Source: a virus. Taken from it: a stretch of 23,426 bases of DNA. The notes beneath the pieces are model-generated. The model ran no database searches and was not told the DNA's origin. It saw only the letters and a program-made list of their open reading frames with translations. Of the stretch, positions 4,582 to 20,172 are shown piece after piece. The DNA lies in IMG/VR virus record IMGVR_UViG_3300045996_000063, positions 1 to 23,426 of that record. One strand, written 5' to 3'. The position numbers and the translations under genes are program-made. Each line of letters starts with the position of its first letter. The stretch's first letter is position 1.

Positions 4582-5040
4582 ATGGCCTTCCCCTCAACCG
4601 CAGGAACCGCACCCGAAGCCCTAAGCGTGGCTTGGGTGAGTGCGATGTCCGTTGCAGGCGCGATCAAGACCGACACGCAGGCTGTACGGGCGCAGAGCCT
4701 TGCCGGAAACGTCGGTGCGTCTCGCATCCTCAACCACCTGACCTTCCTCGCCGACCAGAAGGCACGGCTACAGGCCATTGCAGCATTACCCGGTATCGGC
4801 GCTTATGCACAGGCACAGGCCAATGACCCGGGATTGAACGTGGCCACCGAGTTCACGGCCATGCTTGACGCGATGGACGGTGTACGGGATTGGGTGATTG
4901 CAAACTTCCCGGCATCTGGCGGCTTCCTTCAGGCGCAGAGCATTCAGGCTGACGGTCGCACCACTGACCGTCAGTTCAGCACGGTGCAGCTCGCGAACTA
5001 CCGCACGCAACTGGATGCGCTGATCGCTGCGATCAACTGA
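4582..5040 (+). CDS. Hypothetical phage protein, likely virion-associated
   Basis: A 152-aa mostly alpha-helical protein rich in Ala and Gln. No catalytic motif, signal peptide or membrane span is visible. It lies three bases after the previous gene and nine before the repeat-bearing gene, so it is expressed with them. The amphipathic helical middle (LNHLTFLADQKARLQAIAAL) and the C-terminal region would suit a small virion or chaperone-like component, but no family is recognised. The ribosome binding site is weak (TTAAG), suggesting coupling to the upstream gene. Confidence 0.65.
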   Translation: MAFPSTAGTAPEALSVAWVSAMSVAGAIKTDTQAVRAQSLAGNVGASRILNHLTFLADQKARLQAIAALPGIGAYAQAQANDPGLNVATEFTAMLDAMDGVRDWVIANFPASGGFLQAQSIQADGRTTDRQFSTVQLANYRTQLDALIAAIN

Positions 5041-11466: not shown

Positions 11467-12495
11467 ATGGCTTTTGTAACTGGCACTACGTGGACGCACG
11501 CTACGGCGTCGTCCATGACCTATGGCACCCAGCAGCGCGAGGACGTGGAAGACGTTCTGTGGCAGTTGGACCCGATGGACACCTGGGCGCTGTCGAATCT
11601 CGACAAGGTCTCGGCGACCGGCACCTTGCACGAGTGGCTGTCTGACACTCTGGCGGCTCCCGGCACGAACATCGTCGAGGAAGGCGATGACGCCTCCTAC
11701 GCGACGGCTTCCCCGGCTCCTCGCTACGGCAATTACCAGCAGATCATCCGCAAGACCTTCATCGTCTCCGACACCTTGGACGAGGTGAAGAAGATCGGCC
11801 GCGATACGGAAACCGGCCGTCTCGGTGTCAAGCTCATGAAGGAGTGGAAGCGCGACGCCGAATACGCTCTCGTGCGCAACCAGATCAGCACCATCGGTGG
11901 TGCGGGTACTGGCCGTTCTTCGGCCGGCATGGAAACGTGGATCTACGGCCCCACGGCGCAGACCGCGAACACCATCGCGAATGTCGTGGCGGCCACGCTC
12001 TCGGCTGCGACGGCTACTACCCCGTCTCTGGCGACTGGCGGCATCCCCGGCACGGCCATCACGGACGGCGGTACTACGGCGGCTCTGACGGAAGGTTCGC
12101 TTCGCATGGCACTTGCGGGCGCGTGGGAAGACGGCGGCGATCCGCGCGTCATTCTCGCGAGCGCGCAGAACAAGACGGCCATCGACGGCTTCTCTGGTGT
12201 CGCTACCCGCATGGTCGATAGCTCGCCCAACAAGCAGGCAACGATCATCGGTGCGGCGAACATGTACGTGTCGAGCTTCGGCTCGCCTCACATGGTGGTC
12301 CTGAGCCGATACGTGCGTAACCAGGCGGTGATGTGCATCGACCCGGACTACTGGGCGGTGTCGTATCTGCGCCGTCCGAAGGTGGTCCCGCTCGCCAAGA
12401 CGGGTGACGCGACCAAGAAGATGATCATCGGCGAACTGGGCCTCGTGTGCCGCGCGCCTCTGGCGAATGGCAAGGTCGTCAGCCTCGCGCCGTAA
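11467..12495 (+). CDS. Major capsid protein (SU10-like, HK97 fold)
   Basis: Structural subunit of the head, 342 aa. The N-terminal part includes NIVEEGDDASYATASPAPRYGNYQQI, followed by SDTLDEVKKIGRDTETGRLG and a KRDAEYALVRN helix, which match the SU10-type (DUF5309) major capsid family. A Thr/Ala-rich central region and a C-terminal APLANGKVVSL end complete it. It has the best ribosome binding site in the block (GAGGTAAGTA before ATG), as expected for the most abundant virion protein. A 17-bp RNA hairpin follows the stop within 60 nt. Confidence 0.9.
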   Translation: MAFVTGTTWTHATASSMTYGTQQREDVEDVLWQLDPMDTWALSNLDKVSATGTLHEWLSDTLAAPGTNIVEEGDDASYATASPAPRYGNYQQIIRKTFIVSDTLDEVKKIGRDTETGRLGVKLMKEWKRDAEYALVRNQISTIGGAGTGRSSAGMETWIYGPTAQTANTIANVVAATLSAATATTPSLATGGIPGTAITDGGTTAALTEGSLRMALAGAWEDGGDPRVILASAQNKTAIDGFSGVATRMVDSSPNKQATIIGAANMYVSSFGSPHMVVLSRYVRNQAVMCIDPDYWAVSYLRRPKVVPLAKTGDATKKMIIGELGLVCRAPLANGKVVSLAP

Positions 12496-12496
12496 T

Positions 12497-12997
12497 GTGG
12501 TGATTGTCGGTCATGGACCCTCCGTCCTTTGTGGGCGAGGGTCCGTGATCGATTCACACAAGACCGTCATCAGGCTCAAGGCTGGCTTGGTTCCAAGTCA
12601 GTTGCCTGAGCACTTCGGGACGCGCACGGATGTTATCTGTGCGCGCTCCCACCTATTCGAGCGGCCGGGCGTCAAGTTTTGGCTGTTCCCCGCTCTGCCT
12701 GACCCGGTGGCGGAGAAGTGGCTGAAGCACTACTGGGAGTTCGGCCCCAAGACAAAGGGCGGTAAACCTTCGGTCGGACTCTGCGCGATTTTCCTCGCGA
12801 TGGAGTACCTGAAGCCGAAGAGCATTTCCCTGATCGGCTTTGACCGCGTGTTGAATCCGCTGGATGACACCAGTGGGAAGTGGAACCAGCGGCCGTTCAA
12901 GAATCGATTTGGTACGGGCTCGCACGACCAGGACGCCGAGGGGCGTTGTGTGCGGGCACTGCCTGTGAAGATCGTCAACTTAGCTGAGATGCCATGA
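12497..12997 (+). CDS. GT29-like (sialyltransferase-fold) putative glycosyltransferase
   Basis: A 166-aa protein resembling glycosyltransferase family 29 domains. The N-terminal nucleotide-binding motif VVIVGHGPSVL leads into GSVIDSHKTVIRLK. In the middle is PSVGLCAIFLAMEYL with a following SLIGFD, and near residue 141 lies GSHDQDAEG, where the family keeps a catalytic-type His. It is shorter than eukaryotic members, as phage and bacterial versions are. The start is uncertain: GTG 12497 (or 12500) directly follows the capsid stop and begins at the conserved motif, while ATG 12467 would add ten residues inside the capsid gene. First gene of the accessory cassette. The donor sugar and acceptor cannot be read from sequence. 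Confidence 0.6.
   Translation: MVIVGHGPSVLCGRGSVIDSHKTVIRLKAGLVPSQLPEHFGTRTDVICARSHLFERPGVKFWLFPALPDPVAEKWLKHYWEFGPKTKGGKPSVGLCAIFLAMEYLKPKSISLIGFDRVLNPLDDTSGKWNQRPFKNRFGTGSHDQDAEGRCVRALPVKIVNLAEMP
12506..12553 (+). promoter_or_regulatory. 17-bp RNA hairpin just after the capsid gene
   Basis: Positions 12506-12522 pair with 12537-12553 in 17 consecutive pairs (14 Watson-Crick and three G-U) around a 14-nt loop. It lies 11 nt after the capsid stop and inside the first codons of the GT29-like gene. There is no T-tract, so it is not a standard terminator. It could stabilise the capsid mRNA 3' end, attenuate transcription, or hide the next gene's early codons. Confidence 0.6.
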
Positions 12998-13368
12998 GTA
13001 AATTTGTCGATTTTGACCATCTGCGCGGTATGGAAACGCGCATCTCCTTTCACCAGCACGGTGACATGGGAGAGCAGCAAATCCACTACTCGCAGGACGT
13101 AGAACCATTGCTTGACCTCACCAGCATCGAGCGAAGTCAGGGGTTGGCGGATAAGCAGGCGAAGACAGCGAAGTGGGGCGAGGAGATTCACCTTTACGCC
13201 CGAATCCCACCGGTGATCATTCTCGAGCTCAAGAACAAGTGGGGCGTAGACATCTTCAAGAAGGACCATCTGAAGAAGGCCTTCGAGATAATCAACCTGC
13301 ATTACCCCAAGCTCAAATGCACTGAGAAAACGCATCGGTTAGGCAAGGAGCAGCAGGTGTTCGTTTGA
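12994..13368 (+). CDS. Conserved phage structural-region protein (124 aa)
   Basis: Matches a small uncharacterised family I recall next to head genes in podovirus-like phages: an N-terminal VDFDHLRGMETRISFHQHGD with HYSQDVEPLLD, then EIHLYARIPPVIILELKNKWGVDIF, and a C-terminal LKCTEKTHRLGKEQ. It has no catalytic signature of a sugar enzyme, so it probably belongs to virion assembly rather than to the glycosyl cassette that surrounds it. The start overlaps the previous stop as ATGA and the end overlaps the next start as TTGA. Function unknown; possibly a head-completion factor. Confidence 0.65.
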   Translation: MSKFVDFDHLRGMETRISFHQHGDMGEQQIHYSQDVEPLLDLTSIERSQGLADKQAKTAKWGEEIHLYARIPPVIILELKNKWGVDIFKKDHLKKAFEIINLHYPKLKCTEKTHRLGKEQQVFV

Positions 13369-14741
13369 GCGCGGTAATCCAGCTGGAGCCCGCAGGCCCG
13401 AACAAGGATCTGGTCGCGGCGATGGAATTTCTCGAACGCGGCGACATCGAGAAAGCAGACAAGATCGTCAACGATCATCTGATGCGAAGTCCCGACGATG
13501 CACAGGCGCTGTGCTTGGTCGTGGACATCCTGAAGAAAGCCAAACGCATTCCCGCTGCCTATCATTTGGCCAAGAGAGCGACTGAGCTACGGCCTGACCG
13601 TGGCGAGACGTGGTGCGCGTTAGGTGGTGCTGCGCAGGAACTCTGGAAGCTGGACGAAGCGATCAGCTGCTACCGCAAGGCCAAGCAGCGCGCGACCAAT
13701 AACCAGCAGAAAGCCAAGTACACGAACAACATCGCTTCATCCATGCTGGATGGTGGGCAGTTCGAGAAGTCCGAAGCTGTATGTAGAGAGGGCCTGACGC
13801 ATGACCCAAACGACAGCAGCCTGAACCACAACCTCGGGTTGTCGTTACTCGCGCAGCGTCGTTGGAAAGAAGGATGGCCGCACTACTCGGCATCAGTCGG
13901 CACAAAGGCTCGTCTGCTGATGAAGTACAAGCAGGACGAACCCGTATGGGACGGGTCGAAAGACAAGACCGTCGTTGTCTACGGCGAGCAGGGATTAGGA
14001 GACGAAATCTGCGCGGCTTCGATGCTGCCGGATGTGATTCGCGACAGTAAGCGTGTCATCTTGGACTGCGACCACAGGCTTGAGGGTTTGTTCCGAAGGT
14101 CCTTTCCGCAGGCCAAGGTTTATGGCACGCGATGGAAGAAGTCCACGCAATGGCCGGAACTGTCTGAGGTTGAGGCTTCTATCCCAGGTTTTGAAGTCGG
14201 GAAGTTCTACCGAAATGACGCCGCCGATTTTCCGGGAACGCCATACCTTGTGCCGTGTTCTGATCGCCTTGCCATGTGGAAGGCACTGTTCTCCGCAAAG
14301 CAAAAGCCGGTCATTGGCATCGCGTGGAGTGGCGGTATTTGGCAAAACGCCTCGCTATACCGACAGCTGCCGCTTGCGGACTGGAAGCCGATTTTCTACG
14401 CCATAGACGCGCACTGGGTGTCCCTGCAATACAAGGACGCCTCCAAAGAGATCGAGGGCACTCCGGTCACCCAGTACCGCTACGGGACGTTGACCGATGA
14501 CTACGACGACACGGCGGCGATGGTCGCGGCTTGCGATCTTGTGATCGCGGTCCAGACCTCCGTCGTCCATTTGGCCGGAGCCTTAGGTGTTCCGTGCTGG
14601 GCGATGATCCCAAAGGTTTCGCAATGGCGGTATGGGGAGGCTTTCACAGACCTGCCGTGGTATCGCTCAGTCAAACTATTCCGACAGACCGGCGAGTGGC
14701 CGGTAAAGCAGATCGCAGATGAACTCAAGACTTTCCGATAG
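13365..14741 (+). CDS. TPR-containing glycosyltransferase (heptosyltransferase/GT9-like)
   Basis: Two-domain protein of 458 aa. Residues ~15-175 are tetratricopeptide repeats (pairs of helices with Ala/Gly at packing positions). From about residue 200 a GT-B fold follows, with VVVYGEQGLGDEI near 203, IGIAWSGG near 316, and DDTAAMVAACDLVIAVQTSV-HLAGALGVPCW near 385-411, the donor-binding region of TPR-linked heptosyltransferase-like enzymes. The usual family motif reads V-D-T before the His; here it is V-Q-T. TPRs commonly bind the acceptor protein, so protein glycosylation is a fair inference. TTG start overlaps the previous stop as TTGA. Confidence 0.78.
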   Translation: MSAVIQLEPAGPNKDLVAAMEFLERGDIEKADKIVNDHLMRSPDDAQALCLVVDILKKAKRIPAAYHLAKRATELRPDRGETWCALGGAAQELWKLDEAISCYRKAKQRATNNQQKAKYTNNIASSMLDGGQFEKSEAVCREGLTHDPNDSSLNHNLGLSLLAQRRWKEGWPHYSASVGTKARLLMKYKQDEPVWDGSKDKTVVVYGEQGLGDEICAASMLPDVIRDSKRVILDCDHRLEGLFRRSFPQAKVYGTRWKKSTQWPELSEVEASIPGFEVGKFYRNDAADFPGTPYLVPCSDRLAMWKALFSAKQKPVIGIAWSGGIWQNASLYRQLPLADWKPIFYAIDAHWVSLQYKDASKEIEGTPVTQYRYGTLTDDYDDTAAMVAACDLVIAVQTSVVHLAGALGVPCWAMIPKVSQWRYGEAFTDLPWYRSVKLFRQTGEWPVKQIADELKTFR

Positions 14742-15279
14742 CTACCGCGACATGCAGCACAAGCTGCACGAAACCGGCTCATACGGTGTCGCGAGCATTC
14801 ACTACGCGCCGCTTGTCACGCAGATCATCGACAAGCTCGAGATCACGCATCTCCTAGACTACGGTTGCGGTAGTGCGATGAATTTGGGTAAGTCGATCAA
14901 GCCCAAACAAAAGCTGCAATACCAGGCCTACGACCCTTGTGTACCTGACCTGTCAGGAGACCCTGTCCCCGCACAACTCGTGTGCTGCATCGACGTGTTG
15001 GAACACATCGAGCCCGAGTATCTCGACAACGTGCTGGATCATCTGGTGTCGCTGACGGAAATCGCCGTTGTGCTCACAATCCACACGGGACCCGCACTCA
15101 AGAAGCTCTCGGACGGACGTAATGCCCATTTGATTCAGGAGCCGATGCAGTGGTGGCTGCCGAAGCTGTGGGACCGCTGGGACATCCAGACGGTGCAGAA
15201 GAACGGCGAGAAAGCCTTTCATGTCATCGGATACGCGAAGCCTCGCTTAGAGGCTGTTGACGGCTCCAAGCTCACCTAA
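14719..15279 (+). CDS. SAM-dependent methyltransferase, class I
   Basis: A 186-aa Rossmann-fold methyltransferase. The SAM-binding motif I LLDYGCG is at residues 45-51, the acidic strand AYDP follows about 25 residues later, and motif IV-like IDVLEHIEP is at about 91-99. After that comes HTGPA (122) and DGRNAHLIQ...WWL, a signature of a phage-borne family often found beside glycosyltransferases. It likely methylates a small molecule or sugar rather than DNA (no DPPY or PC motif). It overlaps the upstream glycosyltransferase gene by 23 nt; an ATG at 14752 is a possible later start. Confidence 0.78.
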   Translation: MNSRLSDSYRDMQHKLHETGSYGVASIHYAPLVTQIIDKLEITHLLDYGCGSAMNLGKSIKPKQKLQYQAYDPCVPDLSGDPVPAQLVCCIDVLEHIEPEYLDNVLDHLVSLTEIAVVLTIHTGPALKKLSDGRNAHLIQEPMQWWLPKLWDRWDIQTVQKNGEKAFHVIGYAKPRLEAVDGSKLT

Positions 15280-15282
15280 GAC

Positions 15283-15984
15283 ATGGCGCAGCCGATCCCC
15301 CTTTATTGCGGTTACGACGCAAGGGAGGCGGCTGGGTATCACGTTTTCTGCCAATCGGTGATCGAGCGTTCATCGGTGCCGGTGTCGTTCATGCCGTTAC
15401 ACGGCCCGATGCTCGACGGGTTCGACGGACAGAAGGACGGCACGAACAAGTTCATCTACTCGCGCTTTCTCGTTCCGTACCTGCAGAACTACAACGGCTG
15501 GGCACTGTTCATGGACGGCAGCGACATGGTCTGCCTCGATGACATCGCCAAGCTCTGGGCGTTGCGCGAACAGAATTCGTTCAACAAAGCCTTGGCTGTG
15601 GTTAAGCATGACTACAAGACCAAGCACCCCAGGAAGTACATCGGGACTCCGATGGAAGCCGACAACGCGGACTATCCCGGGAAAAACCGCAGCTCGGTGA
15701 TCCTCTTCAACTGTGGTCACTACGCGAACCGACGGTTAACACCGGAACTCGTGAGCGAATCGCCGGGATCGTTCCTGCACCGCTTCCAGTGGGTCAATGA
15801 CGATCAGATCGGAGAGTTACCAGCTGAGTGGAACCGACTTGCAATGGAACAGGACATCTCGGATGCCTCGCTCGTGCATTTCACTTGCGGAAGCCCCGGG
15901 TTCTCTCACTACCAATACTGTGACGGCGCGGACCATTTCCACCGCGCCAGGAAGAACGCTATGCACATGATCGGTGAACGCTGA
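15283..15984 (+). CDS. GT8-like (GT-A fold) glycosyltransferase
   Basis: A 233-aa putative sugar transferase. The N-terminus IPLYCGYDAREAAGYHVFCQSV fits the GT8-type nucleotide-sugar binding start, followed by YSRFLVPYLQNYNGWALFMDGSDMV, where D78-G-S-D81 stands at the place of the metal-binding DxD. Late NRSSVILFNCGH and the final VHFTCGSPGFSHY match the acceptor-side loops of such enzymes. Metal-dependent transfer from a nucleotide-sugar is family knowledge; the actual sugar is unknown. It closes the cassette, and its stop shares a base with the adaptor start (TGATG), so the cassette and tail genes are co-translated. Confidence 0.75.
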   Translation: MAQPIPLYCGYDAREAAGYHVFCQSVIERSSVPVSFMPLHGPMLDGFDGQKDGTNKFIYSRFLVPYLQNYNGWALFMDGSDMVCLDDIAKLWALREQNSFNKALAVVKHDYKTKHPRKYIGTPMEADNADYPGKNRSSVILFNCGHYANRRLTPELVSESPGSFLHRFQWVNDDQIGELPAEWNRLAMEQDISDASLVHFTCGSPGFSHYQYCDGADHFHRARKNAMHMIGER

Positions 15985-18435: not shown

Positions 18436-19165
18436 CAGCGGTGGAACGACAAGTTCGGTTGGTCCGCCCAAGTGGCAGCTGCCGTATATCCAGCAGGGCT
18501 ATCAGGGAGCGCAGGATCTGTACAACCAAGGAGGGACCGGTGTTGCGCCATTGTCCTCTGAAACGGAAGCCGCCCTGACTGGAACGGCTGCACGCGCACA
18601 AGCAGGCAGCGCAGGCGTCTCTGCGGCTCAGGATGTCAACCAGCAGACCATCAACGGCGGGTTCCTCGGTGCGAACCCCTACCTTGATTCGATGTTCGAC
18701 AAAGCTGCATTAGCCACGCAGAACCAGCTGGCTTCGCAGTTCGCTGGCTCTGGAAGGAACGTAGATCAGTCCCAAGGCAACCGCGCGCAGCAGCTGAACG
18801 ACCTCGCGACCGGAATTTATGGCGGGGCCTATGACTCAGAGCGCAACCGTCAGCAGCAGGCCATCGGTATGGCATCTGGACTTGCAAATCAGGACTACGT
18901 TGATTTGGGCCAGCTTGCGAACGTCGGTGCCCAGCGCGAAGGCTACGCGCAGGAACTGCTAAACCAGCCTGGCCTCAATCTCGACCAGTACCTGGGGCGA
19001 GTGACCGGCAGTGTTGGCTCCACTAGCTACCAGCCATCCACCAGAAATCGTGCGGCAGGGGCCATTGGCGGCGCTTTGCTGGGATCGCAAATGGGTAACC
19101 AGTACGGCGGCTGGGGACAGCTTGGCGGCGGATTGCTCGGTGGCGTGTTGGGTGGGTGGGGCTAG
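18425..19165 (+). CDS. Putative internal virion (ejection) protein A, 246 aa
   Basis: Gln/Ala/Gly-rich helical protein with a disordered Ser/Thr/Gly N-terminus and a glycine-zipper-like C-terminus (GAIGGALLGSQMGN and GGGLLGGVLGGWG). Together with the next three genes it forms the block expected to encode ejected proteins that build a conduit through the envelope in short-tailed phages. Good ribosome binding site GGAGAAGG about 6 nt before ATG. No enzymatic motif. Function is inferred from composition and place, not from a family hit. Confidence 0.62.
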   Translation: MNTSSGGTTSSVGPPKWQLPYIQQGYQGAQDLYNQGGTGVAPLSSETEAALTGTAARAQAGSAGVSAAQDVNQQTINGGFLGANPYLDSMFDKAALATQNQLASQFAGSGRNVDQSQGNRAQQLNDLATGIYGGAYDSERNRQQQAIGMASGLANQDYVDLGQLANVGAQREGYAQELLNQPGLNLDQYLGRVTGSVGSTSYQPSTRNRAAGAIGGALLGSQMGNQYGGWGQLGGGLLGGVLGGWG

Positions 19166-20172
19166 TGCCTGTCGATCCTAACTGGGCTTACGGCATTTAT
19201 TCGCCGCCATCCACAGACGAGGCCGCCTCGCGCGCACAGCAACAGGGCCCTACGTACAACCTGCCAGTCATGGGAGGGCCAACCGTAGATTTCATGCTGA
19301 CGCCGGGTCACCGCGTCACCTCCTACGACCCGAATGCTACTGAAGAGTCGTTGCGCGCTCGGCTGCTTGCGACATCCGACATGCGCAATACCGGCGTGAA
19401 AATCGGCGGATTAACGCAGACGCACGATACGCCAGCCTATTGGCAGGCGTTGCATCCGAACGCCACTCCAGAGGAGCGCGCCGCGCAGGAGAGCGCATAC
19501 AACAGGCGTATGCGCGAGAACGCTGACCAGGGCAACTTTGCGCCAAGCAGCCCGTGGGGAACCATGGCCGCCATGATCGCGGCTGCTGCTGGTGGTGCGG
19601 CGCTGGTAGGCATGGGCGGTGGTGCCGCCGCTGGAGCAGGGGCCGGAGCAGGATCTGGCGCTGGTGCAGCCGGAGCCGGAGCTGGAGCTGGCGCGGGAGC
19701 TGGGGCAGGTGCCGCAGGCGCAGGAGCGGCCGGAGCCGGAGCCGGAGCCGCTGGTGCAGGGGCAGCTGGAGCAGCTGGAGCCGGAGGCATAGGCGCAGGA
19801 TTCGGCACCAATGCGGGAGGCCTTGGGCTTTTCGCCAATGGTGGCACCGCAGGACTTGCGGGACTTGGCGGCGGTAACGCTGGCCTTCTGGCATCAAGCG
19901 GTGCCATTGCAGGCGGCGCTGGCGCTCTCGGTGGCGGGCTGCTCGGTAGTTTGACCAAGTACGGCGGTCAAATCGGTAGTTTGCTCGGACAGGCTCCGCC
20001 TCAGCAGATGGCAGCTATGCCTATGCCTCAGGGACAGGCGCTACCAGCGCAGCAAGGAATGATGGGCTCCATGCCAATCAGCAGGCCGGTACTTCCCGGA
20101 ATGCCGGGAGGGCCCATTCAAGGCTTTAGCCGAAGGCCGTATCAATTCGCTGGCCAAACTATCTGGATGTAA
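19165..20172 (+). CDS. Putative internal virion protein with Ala-Gly tract, 335 aa
   Basis: Starts at GTG 19165, sharing its base with the previous TAG (TAGTG); an in-frame GTG at 19156 would add three residues. Residues ~1-130 are ordinary soluble sequence, then a hydrophobic MAAMIAAAAGGAALVGMGGG, a long Ala-Gly tract, a glycine-rich loop region (LGLFANGGTAGLAGLGGGN) and a Pro/Met/Gln-rich C-terminus ending in GQTIWM. The hydrophobic and AG-rich part is suited to membrane insertion. It likely belongs to the ejection-protein set with its neighbours. Family not recognised. Confidence 0.65.
   Translation: MPVDPNWAYGIYSPPSTDEAASRAQQQGPTYNLPVMGGPTVDFMLTPGHRVTSYDPNATEESLRARLLATSDMRNTGVKIGGLTQTHDTPAYWQALHPNATPEERAAQESAYNRRMRENADQGNFAPSSPWGTMAAMIAAAAGGAALVGMGGGAAAGAGAGAGSGAGAAGAGAGAGAGAGAGAAGAGAAGAGAGAAGAGAAGAAGAGGIGAGFGTNAGGLGLFANGGTAGLAGLGGGNAGLLASSGAIAGGAGALGGGLLGSLTKYGGQIGSLLGQAPPQQMAAMPMPQGQALPAQQGMMGSMPISRPVLPGMPGGPIQGFSRRPYQFAGQTIWM
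19618..19793 (+). repeat. Ala-Gly low-complexity tract
   Basis: About 58 codons are nearly all Ala or Gly in patterns GAGA and GAAGAG. At DNA level GGAGCC-like hexamers recur, but Ala and Gly are written with all their codons (gca/gcc/gcg/gct, gga/ggc/ggg/ggt). This is low-complexity protein sequence more than simple DNA repeat, though a partial hexamer array stands at 19729-19749. Confidence 0.85.

Follow-up and report, generated by a model that had tools for sequence, protein, structure and literature searches.

Two in-frame hairpins in a phage glycosyltransferase gene as a candidate 3'-end element of the upstream capsid transcript

The glycosyltransferase (GT) gene that adjoins the major capsid protein gene in the phage DNA analyzed here encodes two RNA hairpins, HP1 and HP2, within its early codons. 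These hairpins are selected for pairing beyond protein coding and form a conserved structured RNA, and among related phages they alternate with intergenic terminators. The HP1 stem is probably an RNA element that serves the capsid mRNA. Our best explanation, which we consider fairly likely, is that the 3'-end element of the capsid transcript is encoded inside the next gene, with HP2 acting as a partial terminator and HP1 as a trimming barrier that also masks the GT start. The window, meaning the whole stretch analyzed, comprises 23,426 bases of a virus record (IMG/VR IMGVR_UViG_3300045996_000063, positions 1 to 23,426), and its relevant features are as follows.

11467..12495, + strand: major capsid protein gene of the SU10_MCP type (PF17236, E 1e-70; phrog_1328, major head protein).
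12497..12997, + strand: GT29-like glycosyltransferase gene, host of HP1 and HP2 (ORF; PF00777; 13 family members aligned).
12506..12553, + strand: HP1 core, a 17-pair hairpin with a 14-nt loop in the codons for VGHGPS...GSVID (folding, hairpin scan).
12497..12559, + strand: HP1 with its outer extension, in which the GTG start-codon region pairs with 12554-12559 (fold -42.8 kcal/mol).
12617..12650, + strand: HP2, a second in-frame hairpin in the codons for GTRTDVICARS (-25.9 kcal/mol; recoding control; covariation).
12651..12658, + strand: HP2 tail ACCTATTC, a weak U-tract in the window that is stronger in several relatives (T counts).

The capsid gene ends in a TAA whose last base is 12495, and the GT gene putatively starts at a GTG at 12497 or 12500; an in-frame ATG is also present at 12467. 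PF00777 scored 26.8 bits against the window GT protein (cut-off 23), with a match spanning 36-48 residues only, and it matched one of the 13 GT family members.

The original prediction, made from the window sequence, described a stem of 17 consecutive pairs, three of them G-U, with a 14-nt loop and beginning 11 nt past the capsid stop. Folding reproduced this stem exactly: 12506-12522 pairs with 12537-12553 through 14 Watson-Crick and three G-U pairs. The surrounding region (12490-12570) folds at -44.7 kcal/mol, a z-score of -6.29 relative to dinucleotide shuffles, none of which was as good (0/200). When both strands of the window were scanned, HP1 was the lowest-energy 60-nt stretch (-42.0, against -36.7 for the runner-up), and no other uninterrupted hairpin reached 15 pairs (G-U allowed, loop 3-21). 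The second lowest-energy stretch, at 12111-12170, is located within the capsid gene. Overlooked by the prediction were the outward extension of the stem over the GTG start codons and HP2 at 12617-12650.

The codons for VGHGP and GSVID are nearly complementary and in register, third codon position opposite first, so part of HP1 folding comes free. The observed -42.8 kcal/mol compares with a mean of -22.6 for synonymous recodings of the same protein, and about 20 kcal/mol of the stem is therefore codon choice. No recoding was as stable (0/5000, z -5.36), nor was any shuffle of codons within the GT gene (0/3000). The stem is also kept in relatives, and the earlier view that it is not casual holds.

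HP2 lies approximately 110 nt downstream of HP1 in the same gene. None of 5000 synonymous recodings and 11 of 3000 within-gene codon shuffles were as stable. When a synonymous control was slid along the GT genes of 28 loci, peaks recurred at two places, at HP1 and about 100-130 nt beyond it; in the relatives HP2 coincides with the codons that spell (W/F)GxRTDYLCARS. Elsewhere in the window GT gene, a third stretch (12758-12830, around the KPSVGLCAIFLA codons) has a synonymous fold z of -5.1, and weaker peaks occur at similar places in the GT genes of L009, L025 and L040.

Both hairpins have the G+C-rich stem-loop of an intrinsic terminator. Behind HP1 there is no U-tract, as the original prediction had noted, and there are fewer T than expected; HP1 is disfavoured as a plain terminator because the T-tract is missing. 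The window HP2 tail holds 3 T in 9, short of a U-tract. Across the 21 HP2 loci, the three codons right behind HP2 contain 80 T vs 70.6 expected (p 0.0045), with no excess in later codons or behind HP1. A strict scan, which stopped short of HP2 in L014 and L017, identified a T-rich tail behind HP2 in 8 of the 21 HP2 loci. No + strand site in the window passed a consensus terminator scan. Rfam covariance models gave no match to the whole window at the gathering score; the sole hit near the locus was at chance level (E 6.9), on the other strand and inside the capsid gene.

Relatives were found by scanning IMG/VR with the capsid and GT proteins. The GT protein had no match in a phage collection, and alignments of both proteins found no relatives among GTDB genomes. 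The 54 distinct capsid loci fell into three classes. In class 1 (n=23, window included) the GT gene adjoins the capsid gene with no intergenic T-tract terminator; this class includes L014, with an intergenic stem that has no T-run, and L017, with a 106-nt spacer. Class 2 (n=9) has an intergenic terminator between the two genes, and in class 3 (n=22) no GT gene was found in the stretch. The class 2 count omits L021, L044 and L092, which are same-contig repeats or near-identical stretches. Also omitted as repeats were L022-L024, L026, L028-L030, L032, L036, L037, L039, L065, L067-L069, L073, L083, L091 and L093. L087 was set aside since its capsid gene runs off the stretch, and L096-L118, from a further GT scan, are mostly repeats and were not added. 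The L017 spacer (461-566) is flanked by the inverted repeat GCATGTTCGC ... GCGAACATG and looks like a small inserted element, behind which HP1 and HP2 are retained.

The synonymous z of HP1 ranged from -1.8 to -6.0 in all 23 class 1 loci, and that of HP2 was -2.2 or lower in 21. In the two exceptions, which lack HP2, the HP1 region itself holds a hairpin followed by a T-rich tail, TTTGATAT in L045 and TCTTTTCC in L051, the latter in the same early GT codons. L014 possesses both the intergenic hairpin and HP1/HP2. In class 2, HP1 was absent from eight of nine loci, the exception being L050, where a weaker HP1 (z -2.83) lies behind the terminator. HP2 was absent from all seven class 2 loci in which the motif was read at the right place. 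L066 has no HP2 motif, and in L007 HP2 was taken at 4633 rather than at the true site, 4708, where the stretch folds weakly (-16.0). The classes differed at p 2.2e-5 for HP1 and 4.4e-5 for HP2, with relatedness ignored and with the misplaced L007 row left in the HP2 test and in the contrast test described below, where it counts against our reading.

These differences can be compared with several controls. The HP1 z was -0.3 to -1.0 in five GT genes that keep the VGHGPS motif behind a terminator (L007, L008, L019, L020 and L043, the last as VGHGPG). GT homologues without such a capsid gene in the stretch had z around zero, that is, almost no signal; only L061, in which a GT but no capsid gene was found, went beyond -2 (HP1-window z -2.2). 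RNAalifold found 15 consensus pairs in an HP1 alignment of 17 of the 23 class 1 rows (rows that have a one-codon insertion or whose loop diverges were left out) and no pair in 17 control rows, comprising five class 2 and twelve distant genes.

The selected structure is on the sense strand. Over 23 loci, HP1 had a z of -3.94 on the sense vs -1.69 on the antisense strand (p 3.6e-7), and HP2 of -3.29 vs -1.87 (p 1.7e-6). A DNA-level palindrome or antisense element is thus disfavoured, as it also is by 62 G-U pairs vs 16 A-C mismatches, a count that takes in all pairs and is partly forced by the amino acids.

Compensatory changes in relatives, named as a check in the original prediction, are present for HP2 and modest for HP1. 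The HP2 alignment (21 of 23 rows, without L045 and L051) contained four covarying pairs and nine double-change cells, values equaled by 5/500 and 0/500 shuffles, respectively; some covariation measures also respond when the structure is slid by two columns, and the consensus that RNAalifold itself gives for HP2 is weak (-1.05). For HP1, covariation beyond column composition was modest (paired cells 9/500, covariation score 13/500) and the number of pairs with double changes was not significant, because the amino acids there hardly vary. One variable HP1 pair involves the third base of the second Gly codon in VGHGP, which is a purine in 6/8 cases where the facing codon starts with T (Ser) and a pyrimidine in 9/9 where it starts with G (Ala, Asp). 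With relatedness ignored, this base-dependence has a Fisher p of about 0.002.

Hairpins behind the capsid gene are not limited to loci with a GT. Within 60 nt of the capsid stop, 21 of the 22 class 3 loci contain a stretch that folds at -19 kcal/mol or lower; the remaining one, L074, shows a T-run behind a stem with a large loop. Compared with 40 random places in the same locus, the post-capsid stretch ranked in the best tenth in 15/22 class 3, 21/23 class 1 and 6/9 class 2 loci. The strict scan identified T-tract terminators in 13/22 class 3 and 8/9 class 2 loci; most remaining sites have shorter T-runs by eye, with L077 and L090 having none. Post-capsid hairpins also occur in three records of named phages whose capsid genes are more distant, including Sinorhizobium phage phiM5. 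In phiM5 (L121:3470-3544), a tRNA-Met gene lies immediately 3' of this hairpin.

A capsid tree covering 48 of the 54 loci (L017, L027, L035, L090 and L095 were too short, and L088 was left out) requires nine changes of hairpin class, at least six of them forced by well-supported branches. These changes may represent new origins or exchange of the whole cassette. On the GT tree, the clade of L007, L008, L019 and L020 is sister to L018 (class 1), L066 to L003, and L050 to L045. There, the presence of an intergenic terminator suggestively accompanies lost or weakened coding hairpins: of four independent contrasts on well-supported branches, three agree, none oppose and one shows no difference (p 0.25).

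That the hairpins alternate with ordinary terminators suggests a role at the 3' end of the capsid mRNA. The proposed mechanism starts from relatives, in which a conventional hairpin, usually with a T-tract, sits a few nucleotides past the capsid stop. Where a GT29-like gene abuts the capsid gene, this intergenic element is missing, and HP1 and HP2, both in frame within the first ~150 nt of the GT gene, would replace it. We propose HP2 as the terminating hairpin since the T excess behind it is the sole terminator-like trait; it may end part of transcription as a weak terminator. HP1, having no U-tract, may block 3'-to-5' exonucleases and so retain capsid mRNA, and its base may mask the GT start, so that few ribosomes would melt the hairpins. 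As a net outcome, capsid protein would be abundant and glycosyltransferase scarce. An mRNA-stability element or RNase stop had been among the predicted functions, and this part of the prediction fits HP1, although it missed the second hairpin and the terminators of the relatives. A more specific version, which we put forward tentatively and at slightly less than even confidence, is a dual-code gene end. Here, the conserved VGHGPS region of an inserted, moron-like GT would have been recoded, with the protein unchanged, as a two-hairpin 3'-end module for the capsid gene, HP2 terminating and HP1 stopping 3' trimming, with coding and intergenic forms exchanged many times within one phage group.

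The main rival, which we regard as unlikely, is a translational brake, also named in the original prediction. HP1 would occlude the GT start and early codons so that only ribosomes just off the capsid gene translate the GT, and the stems would set the GT dose with no role at the transcript end. This would agree with the position of the GTG start codons within the HP1 base stem, with the capsid stop that overlaps or abuts the GT start in many relatives (e.g. GTGA), and with the lack of T excess behind HP1. However, a brake leaves unexplained HP2, which lies ~110 nt inside the gene, the same-place hairpin in relatives that have no GT, and the loss of both hairpins beside an intergenic terminator. 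The conventional terminator at the same place in relatives argues for a 3'-end element behind the capsid gene and against a brake alone.

It appears improbable that the stems have a different role on the late transcript, for instance in binding a phage or host RNA-binding protein, in processing by RNase III, or as a small RNA internal to the ORF. Stems of 17 to 22 pairs are plausible RNase III substrates. There is no Rfam family match, and PMC7815308 describes 3' ends and small RNAs that arise within E. coli ORFs. Against a specific binding site, the hairpins alternate with plain T-tract terminators of unrelated sequence, which suggests a generic 3'-end role. Finally, the hairpins are most improbable as a by-product of the amino-acid motif, whose near-complementary VGHGP/GSVID codons bring even synonymous recodings to about -23 kcal/mol and explain how easily the region turns into a stem: as a full explanation, this and chance are refuted by the recodings (0/5000 reaching the observed energy at HP1 or HP2), the within-gene codon shuffles, the low z of VGHGPS genes behind terminators, and the absence of RNAalifold pairs in the control rows.

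Post-capsid terminators and ORF-internal terminators are both already known. Phage LUZ100 has a strong terminator immediately after its capsid gene, likened to that of T7 in the description given in PMC10134795, and it shares with our stems the place past the capsid stop and the G+C-rich stem. Close relatives of the window phage have exactly such a terminator. Unlike that of LUZ100, the window element lies inside the conserved coding motif of the next gene, has two stems, and has no U-tract at HP1. A hairpin in the first ~150 nt, with ribosomes maybe behind, likewise characterizes early-CDS terminators. In E. coli, a terminator located 30 bp inside a reading frame retained most of its efficiency; the authors of PMC4824070 explain this by ribosomes rarely catching the polymerase within the first 100 bp. 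The likely beneficiary in our case is instead the gene upstream, and over evolution an intergenic terminator alternates with the coding hairpins. The same source describes terminators a few bases past a stop codon as repressed by the ribosome. This repression applies to HP1 and the intergenic stems alike, and it may account for the presence of HP2 at its more distal position. PMC11696848 describes higher levels of upstream transcript with strong terminators. Such upstream-protecting 3' stem-loops also place a strong stem behind a highly expressed gene, whereas here it is encoded in the downstream open reading frame. In the open-access literature, we found no description of a post-capsid element that is encoded in the next gene's conserved motif and alternates with an intergenic terminator.

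If our reading is true, a cargo gene can slot directly behind what is probably the most highly expressed phage gene while the 3'-end signal is kept, carrying the signal of the upstream gene in its own codons. The repeated swaps between coding and non-coding forms provide a natural experiment on terminator function and a ready reporter test for termination inside an early reading frame. They also warn that gene ends should not be sought in intergenic DNA alone.

A small conserved gene with a QDVEP motif (window 12994-13368; phrog_3982, unknown function) follows the GT gene, and relatives of this small gene sit directly behind the terminator in loci without a GT, e.g. L011, which marks the GT as an insertion behind the capsid gene. 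Further downstream, at 13365-15984, a cargo-like cassette encodes a TPR protein and methyltransferase-like and GT8-like proteins. The window also contains, at 19156-20172, a predicted protein with a long Gly/Ala low-complexity run.
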